DNA of 36,812 nt from the NCBI GenBank assembly GCA_021771185.1, contig JAETPN010000014.1, positions 1 through 36,812 of the forward strand, read 5' to 3'. A model generated the notes under the pieces. That model worked only from the letters and a program-made list of their open reading frames with translations, was not told where the DNA came from and did no database searches. The position numbers and the translations under genes are program-made. The stretch is from Bacillota bacterium. GTDB lineage: Bacteria; Bacillota_I; Bacilli_A; RF39; UBA660. Positions 16,596-23,892 of this stretch are shown here, piece after piece (the first letter of the stretch is position 1; each line of letters starts with the position of its first letter).

Positions 16596-17189
16596 ATGAC
16601 AGATAAGAAAGAGAAGAAGAACATTCTTATTGGTGGATTATTAGTTGCGATTATTGCGATGGCTGTAGGATATGCGGCATTAGCTCAACAATTAACGATT
16701 AATGGTACGGCTCAAGTAACAAGTACTTGGGATGTTGCTATGACATCTATTAGTGAAGGTACAGCAAGTAACTCAACTGGAATTACTTCAACTGCATCTA
16801 ATGCTACACCAGCTGCAATCGAAGGAAAAACGACTGCAACATTTGATGTTTTATTCAAAACACCTGGTGATACTATGGAGTATGATATTGTTGTTTCTAA
16901 TTTAGGATCATTAGATGCTAAATTAAATAATGTTGTTGCTACAACAACAGATGCTGATGGAAATAATTCTAGTACAACATTAACTGAGGCAAACGGAATT
17001 AATTATGAAATTACAATTGATGGTAAATCAACAACAGATGCTCTAAATTCTGTACTTAATGGAAAAGATGGAGATACTACGGATACTGCAACAGTTCATG
17101 TTAAAGTATGGTGGGATGCTGCAGCTACAACAATTCCAACAAATACAGTAAAAAAATTAAACTTAACATTAGAATATGTTCAAGCATAA
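16596..17189 (+). CDS. TasA/camelysin-like secreted beta protein with SipW-type signal
   Basis: This looks like a structural subunit of extracellular fibres. The 197-residue protein starts with a lysine cluster (TDKKEKKN), a hydrophobic signal at about 10-28 (ILIGGLLVAIIAMAVGYAAL) and then AQQLTINGTAQVTSTWDV, a pattern typical of proteins cut by SipW-like peptidases. The rest is Thr/Ser/Asn-rich, nearly Cys-free beta sequence. It includes FDVLFKTPGDTMEYDIVVSN and ends VHVKVWWDAAA...LNLTLEYVQA, like the TasA/CalY immunoglobulin-like fold. There is no LPXTG sorting signal. It has a strong promoter, an excellent ribosome site and its own terminator, so it is probably made in excess over the downstream peptidase. 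A paralogous domain occurs in the gene at 19588. Confidence 0.75.
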   Translation: MTDKKEKKNILIGGLLVAIIAMAVGYAALAQQLTINGTAQVTSTWDVAMTSISEGTASNSTGITSTASNATPAAIEGKTTATFDVLFKTPGDTMEYDIVVSNLGSLDAKLNNVVATTTDADGNNSSTTLTEANGINYEITIDGKSTTDALNSVLNGKDGDTTDTATVHVKVWWDAAATTIPTNTVKKLNLTLEYVQA

Positions 17190-17191
17190 TT

Positions 17192-17227
17192 AAAAACAAT
17201 GATATCTTGTGATATCGTTGTTTTTTT
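17192..17227 (+). terminator. Intrinsic terminator after the fibre-like gene
   Basis: AAAAACAATGATATC (17192-17206) pairs with GATATCGTTGTTTTT (17211-17225) around TTGT. This long stem with U-run separates the fibre gene from the peptidase gene. Confidence 0.85.
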
Positions 17228-17228
17228 C

Positions 17229-17257
17229 TTGCAATCTTTTCTTATTTCTGATAAACT
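17229..17257 (+). promoter_or_regulatory. Promoter of the SipW-like peptidase gene
   Basis: TTGCAA (17229-17234), 17-base spacer ending in TGA, then TAAACT (17252-17257). The -35 and TGA extension are identical to those of the fibre gene promoter, with a weaker -10. Confidence 0.6.
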
Positions 17258-17289
17258 ATATTTAGAATAGGTAAAATAGGAGATATCGT

Positions 17290-18450
17290 ATGAAACGTAT
17301 TAATGCAAAAATTATTAGTGTCTACGTATTGATCTTTTTATATTTGACGATGTATCCAGCATTGAATGTTTTTTGCCCAGGTAAAATTTATTATAATATT
17401 GTCAATCCCTTATTCTGGTTTTGCATTGCTGTTTTAGTGTTTATTTTTTCGGGTAATGAAAAGCCAAGGTATAAAAATAAAATCGATAAGATACAAACAA
17501 TTATTATAGCAGTAATTGTTTATTTGATTGTTTATTTTTTATCTGGTCTCATTTTTGGTTACCAATATAGTCCATATTCCCATAACTTTTTTAAGATTTT
17601 AGGAAATGTGTGGGCTTATTTACCAGTATTTGCATGTCAAGAATATATTAGATCAATTTTAGTTAATTACAGTAGTCGTAAAAAGTATATTTTAGCTATT
17701 ATCACCGTATTATTTGTAGCGGTAGAGTTAAATTATACAGAAATTGATAAGAATTTTAGTAGTATGGCAACTGCATTTGAATATATGTCATCGGTTTTAA
17801 TTCCATCCGTTGTTAAAAATAGTTTATTTACATATATTGCATCGATTGCAGGGTATGTACCAAATATGATTTACCGTATGGTTATTCAAGCGGTGTACTT
17901 TATTACACCTATTTTTCCAAATCTTGATTGGTTTGGAATTGCAATATTTGAAATTGTAACACCATCTGTTATTTATTTCTATATGAATTTTGCACAAATG
18001 AAAACAGAAGAACGGATTTCACGTAAACGTATTAATCGAGACAACCCATTAAATATTTTGCCAGTTTACGCGGCACTACTTATGTTTGTTGGATTTGTCC
18101 TTGGGTTATTTAGAAATGCACCAGTAGCTATTGTTTCTGATAGTATGGTGCCAGCCTTTAGTCGTGGTGATGTCGTTGTTGTTCGTAAATTTAAAATTAG
18201 TGAAGCAGAACTCTTAAAGAAAGATGATGTTTTACAGTATGAATTGGATGGTCGAATGATTGTTCATCGTATTCTTCGTATTAAAGAAGATGACCAAGGC
18301 CAAAGAACATTTATTACAAAGGGTGATAATAATAATGCACCTGATTTGAAACCGGTAAGTGAATCACAAATCCGTGGTGTTGTAAAATATGTTATACCAA
18401 AAATTGGATATCCATCTGTTTGGCTTAATGATATATTTTCAAAACGATAA
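17290..18450 (+). CDS. SipW-like (ER-type) signal peptidase I with multi-helix N-terminus
   Basis: This enzyme probably removes signal peptides from the neighbouring fibre proteins. The C-terminal 110 residues are a type I signal peptidase of the SipW/archaeal/ER kind: VSDSMVPAFSRGDVVVV with catalytic S285, then MIVHRI with H326 in place of the Lys of ordinary bacterial enzymes, then TKGDNNNAPD. Helix 257-276 leads into this domain. Unusually, about 250 residues precede it with roughly six or seven further hydrophobic segments (for example 8-28, 38-54, 69-92, 134-150, 206-236). Typical SipW has only one or two. The start is ATG after TAGGAGAT. It is followed 21 bases later by the DUF5305-like gene, probably on one transcript. 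Confidence 0.85.
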   Translation: MKRINAKIISVYVLIFLYLTMYPALNVFCPGKIYYNIVNPLFWFCIAVLVFIFSGNEKPRYKNKIDKIQTIIIAVIVYLIVYFLSGLIFGYQYSPYSHNFFKILGNVWAYLPVFACQEYIRSILVNYSSRKKYILAIITVLFVAVELNYTEIDKNFSSMATAFEYMSSVLIPSVVKNSLFTYIASIAGYVPNMIYRMVIQAVYFITPIFPNLDWFGIAIFEIVTPSVIYFYMNFAQMKTEERISRKRINRDNPLNILPVYAALLMFVGFVLGLFRNAPVAIVSDSMVPAFSRGDVVVVRKFKISEAELLKKDDVLQYELDGRMIVHRILRIKEDDQGQRTFITKGDNNNAPDLKPVSESQIRGVVKYVIPKIGYPSVWLNDIFSKR

Positions 18451-18471
18451 ATAGAAGAAAAGAGGGTAAAA

Positions 18472-19521
18472 ATGAAGAAGGATAATCATGTGATTAAAAA
18501 GATCATTATTCCATTAATATTTTTGATTATATTTTGTTTAGAGGCAAGTGTGGTATTTGGATCCATCAAAGTCACAAAGGGTAAGAGTGATATTCTTTAT
18601 TCTTATAAGGCAACACCAAGTGGGATGTATCATGTTGGCTTAAAGCAAAATAGTTATATTGATGCAAAACAATTGGGAATGAATCAACTTTATATTTCAA
18701 AATTAGTAAATAACATTGTGAGTCGTTTTAATTATCAATATAGTGGTAGTGAAACAGCAAATTTAACGTATACTTATGGTGTAGAAGCTGAAATCATCGG
18801 AGAGTATCAAACAACGAATGAATTAGATAATAAACGTATCTGGAATAAAAAGTTTACTTTAGTTCCATACAATACCAAAACAGTTACGAATGAAAAGGGA
18901 TTTTCATTCGCACAAGATGTAAATATTAATTTTGAACAATATAATAATATCGCAAGTAGTTTTGCAAAAGAAATTAACATTCCTATGGATGCTTATTTAT
19001 TAGTAACATTTAAAGTAAATGTACGTGGAGTACCAAAATCAAATGTTGGTACAGTTAGTGAAGAAAGTACCTATGAGTTAAAAATACCGTTAGATGAACA
19101 AGCTTTCCAAATCACAACGAAATCAAAGACAAATGATAATCAAACGATTTCAAAAATTACGGCAGCAACCAAAACCATAAATAGTTTAACAATGTTACTT
19201 GCAGGTGCGGCATTTGTCGTGACAGCGCTTCTATTCTTTAAGTATTGTCAAAAAACTTTCGCAAGTAATGAAAGTCCATATCGTAAGAAGGTACAACGTA
19301 TCTTAAAAGAATACGGAGATATTATTGTAGAAATTAATACCCTAATGGATATTTCACAACTTTCTATTGTTGAAGTCAAGTCGTTTAATGAATTGATGGA
19401 TTTAGAGGCTGAATTACGTATTCCAATTTTATATTACGAGAATGGTAGTGATGCGTGGTTCTTAATTAGTCATGATCAACATTTGTATCGCTTTATACTA
19501 AGAGATGAAGAACAAAGTTAA
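18472..19521 (+). CDS. DUF5305-like membrane protein
   Basis: The 349-residue protein has a signal/anchor helix (about 9-30), an extracellular beta-rich region (31-235; for example FNYQYSGSETANLTYTYGVEAEIIGEY, DAYLLVTFKVNVRG), a membrane helix (238-258) and a cytoplasmic tail of about 90 residues. The tail reads RILKEYGDIIVEI, then SIVEVKSFNELMDLEAELRIPILYY and DAWFLISHDQHLYRF. This layout and tail match my recollection of the DUF5305 family, which often accompanies SipW-like peptidases and camelysin-type proteins; that assignment needs a profile search. Function is unknown; a chaperone, assembly platform or sensor for the fibre proteins is a reasonable guess. It starts after AAAGAGGG and ends inside a terminator. 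Confidence 0.65.
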   Translation: MKKDNHVIKKIIIPLIFLIIFCLEASVVFGSIKVTKGKSDILYSYKATPSGMYHVGLKQNSYIDAKQLGMNQLYISKLVNNIVSRFNYQYSGSETANLTYTYGVEAEIIGEYQTTNELDNKRIWNKKFTLVPYNTKTVTNEKGFSFAQDVNINFEQYNNIASSFAKEINIPMDAYLLVTFKVNVRGVPKSNVGTVSEESTYELKIPLDEQAFQITTKSKTNDNQTISKITAATKTINSLTMLLAGAAFVVTALLFFKYCQKTFASNESPYRKKVQRILKEYGDIIVEINTLMDISQLSIVEVKSFNELMDLEAELRIPILYYENGSDAWFLISHDQHLYRFILRDEEQS

Positions 19522-19534
19522 ACTTTGTTCTTTT
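19508..19534 (+). terminator. Intrinsic terminator of the peptidase-DUF5305 unit
   Basis: AGAACAAAGT (19509-19518) pairs with ACTTTGTTCT (19522-19531), three-base loop, followed by TTT. It overlaps the stop codon of the upstream gene. Confidence 0.8.
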
Positions 19535-19535
19535 C

Positions 19536-19564
19536 TTGACTAAAATTAAAATATTTTATAAAAT
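19536..19564 (+). promoter_or_regulatory. Promoter of the anchored fibre paralogue
   Basis: TTGACT (19536-19541), 17-base spacer, TAAAAT (19559-19564), 24 bases before the ATG at 19588. Confidence 0.6.
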
Positions 19565-19587
19565 AGTAATGTATAGTAGGTGATATT

Positions 19588-20226
19588 ATGAAGGAACAAA
19601 ATGAGATAAAATCTTATAAAACTAGAATATTGATTGGCTTATTTGTTGTCTTTATTGTGATGTCTATTGTTTATATCCCATTAGCATATCGAGCAAAGTT
19701 TGGCTTTCCGTTGATACCAAAGCCATTAGATCCAATAACACCACCAGATTCTTCTACACCATCAGATCCATCAACACCAACGAATCCTACAAATCCAACA
19801 ACCCCAACAAAGCCAGTAACTCCATCACGTCCATCCAAACAGTGGGATATTCAAAGTACAATTGTTGGTAATGGAAAAGTGTACGGAAACGCAGAGGAAA
19901 AAAGTAAACCACGATTGGTCGGAAATACCTTTTACTTTGATGTGTTATTGAAATCTCCTGGAGATTATGTTCTTTATGATATTGAGGTTTCTAATAAAGG
20001 TGTACTTGATGCTGTATTAGAACAAGTTTCAACAAGTATTGATCATAAGGAAAATACGAAGAATGCAATTCGTTTTACGGTAACTGGAATTGAAAAGGGA
20101 AGTAGTTTAAACTCTGGAGATACAAAAAAAATACAGGTTAAAGTAGAATGGGATCCAGCAGTTCAAGAAGAAATAGAACATGCTTATAGTACCTTATTTG
20201 TTCATTTACAATTCGTTCAGAAGTAA
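19588..20226 (+). CDS. Membrane-anchored fibre-domain protein with Pro/Thr linker
   Basis: This is a paralogue of the secreted beta protein at 16596 with a different N-terminus. It has a hydrophobic helix at 14-33 without a clear cleavage site, then a Pro/Thr/Ser/Asp linker (about 44-83, repeats of the TPSDP / TNPTTP kind), then one beta domain (85-212). The domain repeats landmarks of the paralogue: QWDIQSTI against TWDVAMTS, FYFDVLLKSPGDYVLYDIEVSN against FDVLFKTPGDTMEYDIVVSN, and IQVKVEWDPAVQ with the ending LFVHLQFVQK. It most likely stays in the membrane and presents the domain beyond the wall, as an anchor or fibre-nucleating minor subunit. That role is inference by analogy with TapA. 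It has its own promoter and terminator. Confidence 0.7.
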   Translation: MKEQNEIKSYKTRILIGLFVVFIVMSIVYIPLAYRAKFGFPLIPKPLDPITPPDSSTPSDPSTPTNPTNPTTPTKPVTPSRPSKQWDIQSTIVGNGKVYGNAEEKSKPRLVGNTFYFDVLLKSPGDYVLYDIEVSNKGVLDAVLEQVSTSIDHKENTKNAIRFTVTGIEKGSSLNSGDTKKIQVKVEWDPAVQEEIEHAYSTLFVHLQFVQK

Positions 20227-20245: not shown

Positions 20246-20281
20246 AAAAAATCTACACAAAATAAAAAGTGTAGATTTTTA
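20246..20281 (+). terminator. Intrinsic terminator of the anchored paralogue
   Basis: AAAAATCTACAC (about 20247-20258) pairs with GTGTAGATTTTT (20269-20280). It stops plus-strand transcription before the convergent PBP gene. Confidence 0.8.
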
Positions 20282-20354: not shown

Positions 20355-23321
20355 TTATTTTACAATAACTGTTCGTTTTAAAGTCTCTCCATGATAGCTA
20401 TCGTTAGTTACGGTATATGTAACTGTATATACTCCTGGAATAGGATTTTCTAAACTATCTGTAGGACCTTCAATTTTAATCGTATAAGCACCACTGATAG
20501 GTGTTCCATCTACTTTTACGATAATACCTAATTCTTTATATGTTTCATTGTTTGCTGTATCAATAGTGATTGTTTTTTCACCAACTAATTCAGCCGTTAC
20601 TTCTTCTTTGATGTTACTTGTTGAAATTTTTACTTCAACTCCATTACTAGCGTTTGCTTTAAAGTTTGTATAAGTTGCTTTTACAACATAAGTAGTAGGG
20701 GAAGAGGCTTTTAATTTCATTGTATATTTTGTACTAGCTGTTGTACCAACATAAACAAGGTTTCCATTTGTTTTACTATAAATATCATAAGTTAAACTTC
20801 CTAAAATACCTTGATTTTTTCCTAAGATGATTGATGCTCCATAATTAGCATCCCCATAAACTTTAGCCCATGATCCAGCAAGAGCACCCTGGTCTAGAGC
20901 GAATGGTGTTTTAATTGCATTCCATGTAATCGTAGCTGTATTTCCACTAACGGTTGCTTTTACATTGGTTGGATCATCTAAGCGAGCAAAGCGTTTCGAT
21001 GTTTCTGTTGGTTCTGTTCCTTTTTTAAATAATTCTGTTGTTTTTAAATTATCTGGGGTAAATTCACTTGGAAGTTGTGCAGGATAACTATCTCGTTCAA
21101 TGGCTACTTCCACAACACCATTTGGTCGTGTCCAATTGCTTCCAGCTTTATAAATTCCTTTTGCAACGGCTTGGAACAAACGACGATGTCCAATGCTATA
21201 AGAAGTACTTACATAATTTGGATTAATCTTTGTATATCCATACCAAATCGAAATGGCATAATCTGGAGAAGTTGAATTGACCCAAAGATCATTGACAGCA
21301 TTAGGACCAAATCCCCATTTTTTAATCGTGACTTCATCAAAGTTTGATGTACCTGTTTTTGCACCGAATACAGCGCCATTACCTAAATTTGCTTGATTTC
21401 CTAATCCTTGTTGTGCACTAGATTGAAGTAGACTCGTCATAATATAAGCTGTTTCTTCGCTCATTACACGTTTCTTTTCAGGTTTATTTTCTTTTGTTTC
21501 ACCAGTTTGTTTATAAACAATTTTTGTATAACTATGTGGTTTAATGTAATATCCACCATTTCCAAATGCGGCATAAGCACCAGCCATAGTTAATGGACTT
21601 TCTCCATTATATCCTCCTAAAGCATGTGCTTCATGAACAATGCCATCATCACTTACTTCAGGACTTAGTCCTAGGTTTGTAACAAATTCTTTTATATTCT
21701 TATTTTTGTTTTGTTGGAAAGCTTTTAATGCAGGGATATTACGTGATTCTGCTAGGGCATCACGTAGTGTTTGCCATCCATGATATCCACGATCCCAGTT
21801 GTAAATTTCGACACCATTTGAATAACTATGTTTTTCATCGACGAATGGTGTATAAGTATTCCAGTTTTCATATTCAATTCCTGGTGCATAATCATAAAGT
21901 GGTTTTGCCGTAGACCCAATTTGTTTACTCATCATGGTTGCATTATTAAATCCACGTTGACCAGAACGATTACGTCCTGCTCCCACGGCAACGATTTCAC
22001 CAGTTTGATTATTTAGAACCATAACTCCGGCATCTACAGCTTCATTTTCCCATTGGAATCCATCGCCATCCATAATATTTGAAATGTGTTCTTGTTTCTC
22101 AGTATCTAAGGTTGTATAAATTTCCATAGATGTAGTATAAGGATCTAATCCTGTGTCTTCTGCAACTTCTTCTACAACGGTATCAATGAATGCTTGATAT
22201 TTATTTGAGTTTGTAGATCCAGCTTCATCTTTGTTACGTTCTTTTACAATTTTATCTACGGTTAATTTTTCAGCAGCTTTACGTTCTTTAGAAGTAATAT
22301 ATCCATGTCGTTCCATTAAGTATAAAACGGTTTTACGACGTTTTTCTGTAAGTTCTGGATGTAAGGTTGGATCATATGAATTTGGTGCTTGGAAAAGACC
22401 AGCAATCATCGCTGCTTCTGCAAGATTAAGGTCTTTCGCAGATTTACCAAAATAGGTAAGACAAGCTTGTTCTACACCCCATGATCCGCCACCTAAATAA
22501 GGAGCATTCACATAGAATTCCATGATTTCTTTTTTAGAATAATGTTGTTCTACCTGGAAGATAGACATATAAATATCTGTAAATTTACGTTTGATTCCTT
22601 CAAAACCTGAAGCGGTAGTTGAAGTGAAGTGATTCTTAACAATTTGCATCGTTAAGGTAGAAGCTCCTCCCGCATTTCTACCAAGGAGTTGACCAGCACT
22701 TGCTTTTAAGAAACGTGGTAAGTCAAATCCATTATGTTCAAAGAACCTGGAATCTTCGGTTGCAACAATAGCATCAATTAAAACTTCAGGAAGTTGATCG
22801 TAAGTTACTTTTTCACGATTTTCAGCACCTAATTTTGCTACTTGTTTTCCGTTGGAAGCATACAAAATACTAGATTCCTGATGATATAAATTTTTAGGAT
22901 CAAATTTTGGAGCCTCTTTAATAATCATCGCCATAAATATAATAAAAGCGACAATACTAAGAATTCCTAAGACTAATAAAATTGTAAGTGCAATTTTCCA
23001 TCCTTTTCTTTTTTTCTTGTTTTTCTTCTTTTTTGTATCTTTTTTTGCCGTTGACACAGCATTAATATTTTTTGCACTTCTTGTGTTTTTTGTGTAGTTA
23101 TCAATTTTCACGTTTGGACCACCTTTACTCTTTTTTTCTTTTTTTAACCATTGCTCTTGATTTGGTAAGAACAAGAGGACATCAATCACTCCGATAATTA
23201 GAATGGATTTTAACCAACCAATAGTTATGCCGCCAATAATAATCGCAATCAAACTAATGATTAATAAAGCGATTGATTCTTGATATTTTTTTATAAAATG
23301 TATTATCTCTCTTTTGTTCAC
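20355..23321 (-). CDS. ponA: Class A penicillin-binding protein (PBP1-type)
   Basis: This bifunctional peptidoglycan synthase polymerises glycan strands and cross-links peptides outside the membrane. GT51 motifs are EDSRFFEHNGFD (catalytic Glu about 189) and GGASTLTMQIVKN. Transpeptidase motifs are STAK (Ser about 470), SRN (about 526-528) and KTGTS (about 655-657). The GTG at 23321 is chosen over an ATG ten codons upstream, because AAGGAGGT stands directly before it at the end of recU; the product is 988 residues. Odd: two extra N-terminal helices (about 17-52), then a long Lys-rich stretch before the usual single anchor helix (about 110-134). The C-terminus adds a fibronectin-III-like segment (NTATITWNAI) and a bacterial Ig/DUF5011-like end (PGVYTVTYTVTND). 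It follows recU as in Bacillus. Confidence 0.93.
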   Translation of the reverse strand: MNKREIIHFIKKYQESIALLIISLIAIIIGGITIGWLKSILIIGVIDVLLFLPNQEQWLKKEKKSKGGPNVKIDNYTKNTRSAKNINAVSTAKKDTKKKKNKKKRKGWKIALTILLVLGILSIVAFIIFMAMIIKEAPKFDPKNLYHQESSILYASNGKQVAKLGAENREKVTYDQLPEVLIDAIVATEDSRFFEHNGFDLPRFLKASAGQLLGRNAGGASTLTMQIVKNHFTSTTASGFEGIKRKFTDIYMSIFQVEQHYSKKEIMEFYVNAPYLGGGSWGVEQACLTYFGKSAKDLNLAEAAMIAGLFQAPNSYDPTLHPELTEKRRKTVLYLMERHGYITSKERKAAEKLTVDKIVKERNKDEAGSTNSNKYQAFIDTVVEEVAEDTGLDPYTTSMEIYTTLDTEKQEHISNIMDGDGFQWENEAVDAGVMVLNNQTGEIVAVGAGRNRSGQRGFNNATMMSKQIGSTAKPLYDYAPGIEYENWNTYTPFVDEKHSYSNGVEIYNWDRGYHGWQTLRDALAESRNIPALKAFQQNKNKNIKEFVTNLGLSPEVSDDGIVHEAHALGGYNGESPLTMAGAYAAFGNGGYYIKPHSYTKIVYKQTGETKENKPEKKRVMSEETAYIMTSLLQSSAQQGLGNQANLGNGAVFGAKTGTSNFDEVTIKKWGFGPNAVNDLWVNSTSPDYAISIWYGYTKINPNYVSTSYSIGHRRLFQAVAKGIYKAGSNWTRPNGVVEVAIERDSYPAQLPSEFTPDNLKTTELFKKGTEPTETSKRFARLDDPTNVKATVSGNTATITWNAIKTPFALDQGALAGSWAKVYGDANYGASIILGKNQGILGSLTYDIYSKTNGNLVYVGTTASTKYTMKLKASSPTTYVVKATYTNFKANASNGVEVKISTSNIKEEVTAELVGEKTITIDTANNETYKELGIIVKVDGTPISGAYTIKIEGPTDSLENPIPGVYTVTYTVTNDSYHGETLKRTVIVK

Positions 23322-23331
23322 AGGGACCTCC

Positions 23332-23892
23332 TTAAAAATATAATTCATCAATTACTTTTAAATAGTCTATTCTTGGATGAATTCTGTTTTGAATTTTCGT
23401 CGCTTGTTCACGGAAGTAAGAAATAGGTATTGATTTTCTTGTTGAACACTTCATAAAATCAAATAAGTCTTCCGCTTTTAGATAATAAGTTTCATCTAAT
23501 GTTGTAAAACGAACAATGAGAAAAGCAATTCCACCATGATGTATGACTGCTTTTAAATGATCTATTTGATGTGGATGAATGTTACGAATGGGAAAAGATG
23601 TTGTACTTTTACTTTCCTTTGCATCAAAATCGATATAACGTCCTTTATAAATTCCATTGTAATCTGTTGTTGATGGGGTTTTAAAATAGGCTTCTTTAAC
23701 GACAGCTTCTTTTCTAGAAGGATAATCGACTTTGGTAATCGTTAGTGGTGTTGGTTTTTTATAAATAACACCACGGTCATGTGTAAGGTAAAAGGTATTT
23801 GTTTCATTAATATCTTCCTCTAGTGTCATCCCACGGTTTCCGTATTGTACCGTTGTCTGATATTTTCTTTTTAAACCACCAGGATAAAACAT
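23332..23892 (-). CDS. recU: Holliday junction resolvase RecU
   Basis: RecU cuts four-way DNA junctions during recombination and chromosome segregation. The 186-residue product has the family landmarks: QTTVQYGNRGMTLEEDINETN near the N-terminus, DYNGIYKGRYIDFDAKES (the D...E-K nuclease core), TSFPIRNIHPHQIDHLKAV, GGIAFLIVRFTTLDETYYL, and ISYFREQATKIQNRIHPRIDYL at the end. ATG is preceded on the minus strand by TATAGGTGAT. A TATAAT lies at 23915-23910 with no good -35. The PBP ribosome site lies at the end of recU, and the gap is ten bases, so both are one operon. The pair is conserved in Bacilli. Confidence 0.95.
   Translation of the reverse strand: MFYPGGLKRKYQTTVQYGNRGMTLEEDINETNTFYLTHDRGVIYKKPTPLTITKVDYPSRKEAVVKEAYFKTPSTTDYNGIYKGRYIDFDAKESKSTTSFPIRNIHPHQIDHLKAVIHHGGIAFLIVRFTTLDETYYLKAEDLFDFMKCSTRKSIPISYFREQATKIQNRIHPRIDYLKVIDELYF

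Follow-up and report, generated by a model that had tools for sequence, protein, structure and literature searches.

A SipW-type gene cassette with a DUF5305 partner, probably for sortase-independent fibre or adhesin assembly, in a Bacillota bacterium

Introduction

In Bacillus subtilis, TasA forms a donor-strand-exchanged fibre in which each subunit lends its N-terminal strand to complete the fold of its successor (PMC9674648), and TapA donates the first strand to this fibre (PMC10151520, PMC9674648). Bacillus cereus carries sipW with TasA, CalY and CapP, a sortase-independent system of two camelysin-type subunits, SipW and an assembly factor (PMC13082335). The archaeal bundling pili (ABP of Pyrobaculum, ABPx of Pyrodictium) are also donor-strand-exchanged fibres (PMC11952670). 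Here, we describe a four-gene cassette related to these systems, located at positions 16596–20226 of contig JAETPN010000014.1 (36,812 nt, hereafter the window; assembly GCA_021771185.1) from a Bacillota bacterium of the RF39 lineage. The features of the cassette described below lie on the forward strand.

The cassette shares with tapA-sipW-tasA of B. subtilis a secreted subunit with a predicted beta-sandwich and a SipW-type signal, a dedicated signal peptidase of the endoplasmic reticulum (ER) type, an accessory protein, and the lack of a sortase. It differs in that a DUF5305 protein is present and TapA absent, in its 386-amino-acid peptidase with a multi-transmembrane (multi-TM) domain, in a pilin paralogue that has a predicted uncleavable anchor and no donor strand, and in the many pilin-domain adhesin fusions of the genome. 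Like the cassette, the B. cereus system combines two camelysin-type subunits with SipW and an assembly factor and is sortase-independent, but CapP is secreted, resembles a chaperone and is itself a SipW substrate (PMC13082335), whereas the DUF5305 protein is predicted to be a membrane protein with two TM helices. The sipW-bsaABCRSD operon of Clostridium perfringens resembles the cassette in encoding a SipW-dependent, sortase-independent, beta-rich filament protein with a predicted terminator after the major subunit gene; no DUF5305 is named there, a two-component regulator lies inside the operon, and BsaA polymers are unusually resistant to sodium dodecyl sulfate (PMC7395162). The archaeal bundling pili differ in being archaeal; AbpX is the best match of our pilin profile among solved structures.

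Judged from its genes and models, the cassette probably serves sortase-independent fibre or adhesin assembly of the SipW–camelysin (TasA-like) kind. What is new relative to SipW–camelysin fibres is the DUF5305 partner, the long peptidase, the predicted acceptor-only base in this genus, and the large set of pilin-domain adhesins.

Gene content and conservation of the cassette

A preliminary description of the window had placed four open reading frames in the cassette and read them as a four-gene equivalent of tapA-sipW-tasA. The coordinates of all four proved correct, and a stretch resembling a ribosome-binding site precedes each start. The proteins encoded at 16596 and 19588 are paralogues, as had been proposed (BLASTP E=4e-15, 32% identity over 155 amino acids), and they share the landmarks FDVLFKTPGDTMEYDIVVSN versus FDVLLKSPGDYVLYDIEVSN, VKVWWD versus VKVEWD, and WDV versus WDI. 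As the pilin-family profile also matched the 19588 protein (hhalign E=4e-15), this similarity is not due to chance. Between the paralogues lie genes for a signal peptidase of the ER/archaeal type (TIGR02228, SEC11-like) and for a true member of the DUF5305 family (PF17231), both in agreement with the preliminary description.

The lack of sortase signals was likewise borne out: none of the four proteins has an LPXTG-type signal with a C-terminal TM helix, no sortase occurs in the locus, and the single sortase detected in the genome sits elsewhere, on contig C35. Scanning the four proteins against Pfam and NCBIfam gave no TapA-type match and detected no chaperone-usher components (periplasmic chaperone or outer-membrane usher) in the cassette. 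The idea of a self-contained four-gene equivalent had to be abandoned, since TapA is missing, the peptidase is longer, a strong hairpin sets the pilin gene apart from that of the peptidase, the membrane-tied paralogue is genus-specific, and about ten additional adhesin-like proteins carry the same domain. A SipW-type fibre system nevertheless remains the best reading, supported by synteny in five of five genomes of the genus, a three-gene core, distant kinship to camelysin and TasA, and an anchor whose cleavage site is destroyed.

We surveyed the gene neighbourhood in relatives. Each of the five genomes examined from the genus has the four genes together, in the order of one to four copies of the small subunit, the peptidase, DUF5305 (present in 5/5) and the membrane-tied paralogue, with yabP/yabQ/divIC on one side and a PBP1a gene on the other. 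At the family level, DUF5305 was carried by 74 of 145 genomes, and a full-length long peptidase was found in 63 of 141. DUF5305 lay within 1.5 kb on the same strand for 77 of 83 long peptidases, 76 of them having it downstream. Among the loci fetched, 45 of 55 had a pilin-domain gene immediately ahead of the peptidase, and in 26 of 50 a beta-domain gene followed DUF5305; in many loci, the peptidase was directly preceded by a tandem array of two to four near-identical stand-alone pilins. Pilin and full-length peptidase occurred together in 59 of 141 genomes and were both missing in 71, with only 11 discordant (Fisher p=1e-26). These neighbourhood and co-occurrence counts indicate that the conserved unit is pilin–peptidase–DUF5305, while the gene in the fourth position varies. 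A putative surface-fibre or adhesin system is thus described in about half of the genomes sampled from this large family, whose members have small genomes; the literature searched contained no such fibre system for this family.

The location of the cassette beside yabG, yabP, yabQ and divIC in this genus, together with the first description of TasA as a spore-coat-associated protein (PMC9674648), would fit a spore appendage or coat protein. We consider such a spore-associated function improbable, as the module lies in unrelated genomic contexts outside the genus and the link to sporulation belongs to the neighbourhood and not to the cassette genes themselves.

The pilin-like subunit

The first gene (16596–17189) encodes a 197-amino-acid, major pilin-like subunit with a SipW-type signal peptide, a candidate N-terminal donor strand and a beta-sandwich, as indicated by profile matches and an AlphaFold2 (AF2) model. 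It scored 19.2 bits against camelysin PF12389, under the family cut-off of 22.5, and 12 of 45 relatives matched PF12389 at E<0.01. At the profile level, its family aligned with camelysins from other families over its whole length (178 columns, hhalign probability 93%, E=3.6e-7), while the negative control, DUF5305, reached a probability of 4%. The best match of the family profile in the Protein Data Bank (PDB) was the archaeal pilin AbpX (9sj2, E=1.5e-4), with TasA below significance. On these profile comparisons, the subunit is a distant relative of camelysin and TasA.

The Pfam name would suggest a camelysin-type metallo-endopeptidase, and the weak PF12389 match speaks for it. The protein has a single histidine in 197 residues, no HExxH and a score below the cut-off, and the characterised relatives are fibre subunits. 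We therefore rejected this role, to which we give almost no credence.

In the AF2 monomer model (pLDDT 89), a signal helix (residues 3–29) is followed by unpaired residues 30–46 and a beta-sandwich (47–196). Foldseek returned no match below 1e-3; fibre-form TasA (8aur) ranked 18th with a weak, non-significant score (E=0.08, probability 0.75), and the chaperone-usher pilus subunit CfaB was among the better non-significant matches. The comparison with the TasA fold, which the preliminary description had proposed as a check, thus yielded neither a clean match nor a mismatch. Directly after the presumed cleavage site lies the candidate donor-strand segment (residues 28–41, ALAQQLTINGTAQV; 16677–16718), which has no strand partner in the model of the single chain. 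When alignment columns were tallied for 128 relatives, this segment showed the conserved pattern L-x-I-x-G-x-A-x-V, and the residue before the presumed cut (position 27) was Ala or Ser in 121 of the 128. In the model, the beta-sandwich with its free N-terminal strand fits donor-strand exchange. By analogy with TasA and the archaeal bundling pili, the exported subunit would be cleaved by the long SEC11-like peptidase, which would expose the N-terminal donor strand (QQLTINGTAQV). This strand would then enter the groove of a neighbouring subunit, and a donor-strand-exchanged fibre would result.

The membrane-anchored paralogue

The last gene (19588–20226) encodes a 212-amino-acid pilin paralogue that matched the pilin profile but has lost the cleavage site; it comprises a predicted uncleavable signal anchor, a proline-rich linker and an acceptor beta-domain. 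A YIPLAY motif (19672–19689) replaces the signal-peptidase site, and in all five anchors of the genus Y-A-A-L is changed to Y-I/V-P-L. Among the 128 scored relatives, Pro occupies the cleavage column in these five anchors only. Signal peptidase I is blocked by large residues at −1 and by Pro at +1. The protein should hence stay in the membrane, given the Ile or Val at −1 and the Pro at +1.

Alignment of the paralogues placed a proline/threonine-rich linker (19708–19842) where the donor strand would be, and the donor-strand pattern is absent. The proline linker of the preliminary description thus exists in the window protein, but in sister species the linker is short or contains Gly/Ser. The acceptor beta-domain appears to be kept, its fold being inferred from homology. 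The protein should accordingly be an uncleaved, acceptor-only membrane base: keeping its N-terminal membrane helix and lacking a donor strand, it would accept a strand without offering one and would form the base where the fibre ends at the cell. Such a predicted acceptor is the reverse of TapA, a donor, and would provide a natural contrast to it: here the base of the fibre would receive the first strand instead of giving it.

The membrane-tied second subunit of the preliminary description is therefore upheld by the signal anchor with its lost cleavage site, although the membrane-tied fourth paralogue is a genus-specific feature and not a family-wide one. In other genera, the fourth protein is secreted, with a cleavable-looking signal and a beta-domain, and is often large with big C-terminal regions.

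The long peptidase and the DUF5305 protein

The peptidase gene (17290–18450) encodes a long SipW/SEC11-type (S26B, ER-type) signal peptidase of 386 amino acids, the first ~250 of which form the multi-TM N-terminal domain. It matched TIGR02228 with 80.4 bits (cut-off 51.85, E=1e-22) and SEC11C over residues 257–360 (E=6e-13), and its last 130 residues align to human SEC11. The catalytic residues Ser285, His326 and Asp346 are conserved in the motifs SxSM, VHR and TKGDNN; Ser and His (not Lys) plus Asp are as expected for S26B. Compared with SipW, the protein is about twice as long and carries an added multi-TM domain, and it remained below the cut-off of the SipW equivalog NF046067 (54.5 bits versus 190). 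The multi-TM domain (17290–18100) had no consistent match to any Pfam family, and G86, E118, R121 and P210 are invariant in it.

After a gap of 21 nt, which suggests that the two genes form a natural pair, follows the DUF5305 gene (18472–19521). The 349-amino-acid product matched PF17231 over the full model length (77.9 bits, cut-off 29, E=1e-21). Its AF2 model (pLDDT 92) shows TM helices at residues 5–30 and 238–263, a beta-rich ectodomain (32–236) with very long strands, and a small cytosolic C-terminal domain. Neither a PDB sequence search nor Foldseek revealed a significant relative of solved structure. DUF5305 was found in none of 14 control genomes, and a search for it in plasmids gave no match. 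A collection of named genomes, scanned with the DUF5305 and peptidase proteins, yielded no match either. No function has been described for the family, and no mention of it was found in the literature searched.

That DUF5305 so constantly follows the peptidase speaks for a function in the handling of subunits after cleavage, and we propose that it is the partner of this enzyme in assembly. As a membrane protein whose gene comes right after that of the peptidase, it could be an assembly platform or chaperone that receives the cleaved subunit. A family without known function would thereby gain a testable role, in which it acts with a signal peptidase to assemble fibres.

Alternatively, DUF5305 might be an accessory subunit of a dedicated SEC11-like peptidase, comparable to SPC for ER SEC11 and concerned only with cleavage of this type of signal peptide, a possibility that is compatible with fibres and that we hold tentatively at best. 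The cleaved substrates would then polymerise unaided, or not at all. The near-invariant adjacency of the two genes and the closeness of the peptidase to SEC11 speak for it. The adjacency recurs in a haloarchaeal-looking contig (L117, G352:C49; 60% G+C, acidic proteins), where a SEC11-like gene adjoins DUF5305 and several secreted proteins have SipW-like N-termini. By contrast, SPC22/23 was missing from the top 50 matches when the DUF5305 model was searched with Foldseek, so homology to this ER signal peptidase subunit is not supported, and B. subtilis SipW cleaves its substrates although DUF5305 is not known in that genus and occurred in none of the 14 control genomes.

The L117 contig, whose genome bin is assigned to the same class, is probably a contamination; the pairing of SEC11-like peptidase and DUF5305 reaches beyond this bacterial family. 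In G375, the peptidase is flanked by two small secreted proteins, followed by a DUF5305–MshEN fusion (L118:6837-8771, G375:C6). MshEN domains bind cyclic di-GMP in other proteins, and by analogy the fusion hints at second-messenger control of the system there.

Adhesin-like relatives and the case for a fibre

The genome contains one long peptidase and one DUF5305 protein, versus 16 stretches that match the pilin profile; sister genomes have 13 to 34 such matches each. Outside the cassette, the genome encodes about ten more adhesin-like proteins, dispersed and bearing the pilin domain. Two further proteins are pilin-only, and at least eight larger ones have an N-terminal pilin domain; in every case with a complete contig, this domain comes after the signal and donor strand. 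The C-terminal parts recognised in the larger proteins are LRR_5 (three) and DUF6273 (three), the others being weak or unassigned. No C-terminal sorting signal was present in the adhesin sequences read. This distribution points to a single assembly cassette used by many interchangeable subunits. Sharing signal, donor strand and pilin domain with the 16596 subunit, the roughly ten dispersed proteins, many of them LRR_5 or DUF6273 fusions, would enter its fibre as minor or tip subunits and supply the binding functions. If the LRR and DUF6273 fusions do plug into the fibre, this would explain how varied adhesins are displayed without sorting signals.

The same relatives could be displayed without any polymer. 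Each adhesin would then dock singly on the membrane-tied paralogue, perhaps with DUF5305, forming a coat of receptor and ligands in which the 16596 protein is a spacer or blocker. We regard this as unlikely. It agrees with the fact that the relatives encoded in the genome are mostly large single proteins, each containing one pilin domain, and that the anchor holds an acceptor domain only, but the tandem arrays of stand-alone pilins before the peptidase suit a repeated structural subunit. Moreover, the hairpin after the pilin gene (see below) suggests an excess of pilin, the anchor is confined to this genus, and the relatives AbpX and TasA polymerise (PMC9674648, PMC11952670).

Several observations weigh against fibre assembly. 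The subunit scored below the PF12389 cut-off, and its fold match to TasA was non-significant. Donor-strand exchange is inferred only, because the AF2 model shows a single chain. No full-length peptidase was detected in seven of the 66 genomes with pilins, in assemblies that are incomplete. As the anchor is genus-specific, other genera must hold their fibres otherwise. Finally, the role of DUF5305 is a guess from gene context, because no significant relative of known structure was found.

A broader form of the fibre interpretation is that DUF5305 and the SEC11-like peptidase constitute a membrane assembly machine, a counterpart of chaperone-usher in a Gram-positive lineage that relies on SipW cleavage, which takes many interchangeable pilin-domain adhesins into donor-strand fibres on an acceptor-only base, with a polarity opposite to that of TapA and with the machine part shared with haloarchaea. 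We put this forward as a speculative and rather doubtful extension.

Hairpins, contig ends and neighbouring genes

Terminator-like hairpins were found by direct folding; a general terminator scan had missed them, probably owing to the low G+C content. A strong hairpin and T run lie just past the pilin gene (17192–17225; −16.4 kcal/mol, z=−8.1) and form a possible attenuator between pilin and peptidase, so that pilin could be made in excess over the peptidase. It recalls the sipW-bsaA region of C. perfringens, where a terminator is predicted after bsaA and the longer operon transcript is a read-through product (PMC7395162). Another hairpin (19502–19537; −14.7 kcal/mol, z=−4.2) overlaps the end of the DUF5305 gene. 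More than one was seen downstream of the anchor gene, including that at 20247–20281 (−12.5 kcal/mol, z=−5.9). Promoter-like sites were no commoner than in shuffled sequence, and we claim no promoter.

Some of the adhesin genes lie at contig ends. The same 96-nt stretch, identical and covering the 5' donor-strand region, occurs at the L113 end, L114 start, L111 end and L112 start (C35, C39, C37 and C24, respectively), indicating that the assembly has split at least two adhesin genes. These genes have probably undergone recent duplication or gene conversion. Phase variation was considered, but we make no such claim, as the data show only assembly-breaking shared repeats of ~96 nt. A second pair of contig ends (L112 13392-13544 and L116 5244-5447; C24 and C34) carries the 99% identical 5' part of another SipW-signal protein.

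The sole sortase detected in the genome (contig C35) adjoins its own Cna/SpaA-like protein, away from the cassette. This repeat protein, with a C-terminal TM tail, is encoded at L113:2809-5062 (C35), just upstream of the start of a SipW-type adhesin. The two constitute a separate, sortase-linked surface system. Downstream of the cassette, the PBP1a-type penicillin-binding protein (window 20355–23351) carries an extra C-terminal, surface Ig-like domain.

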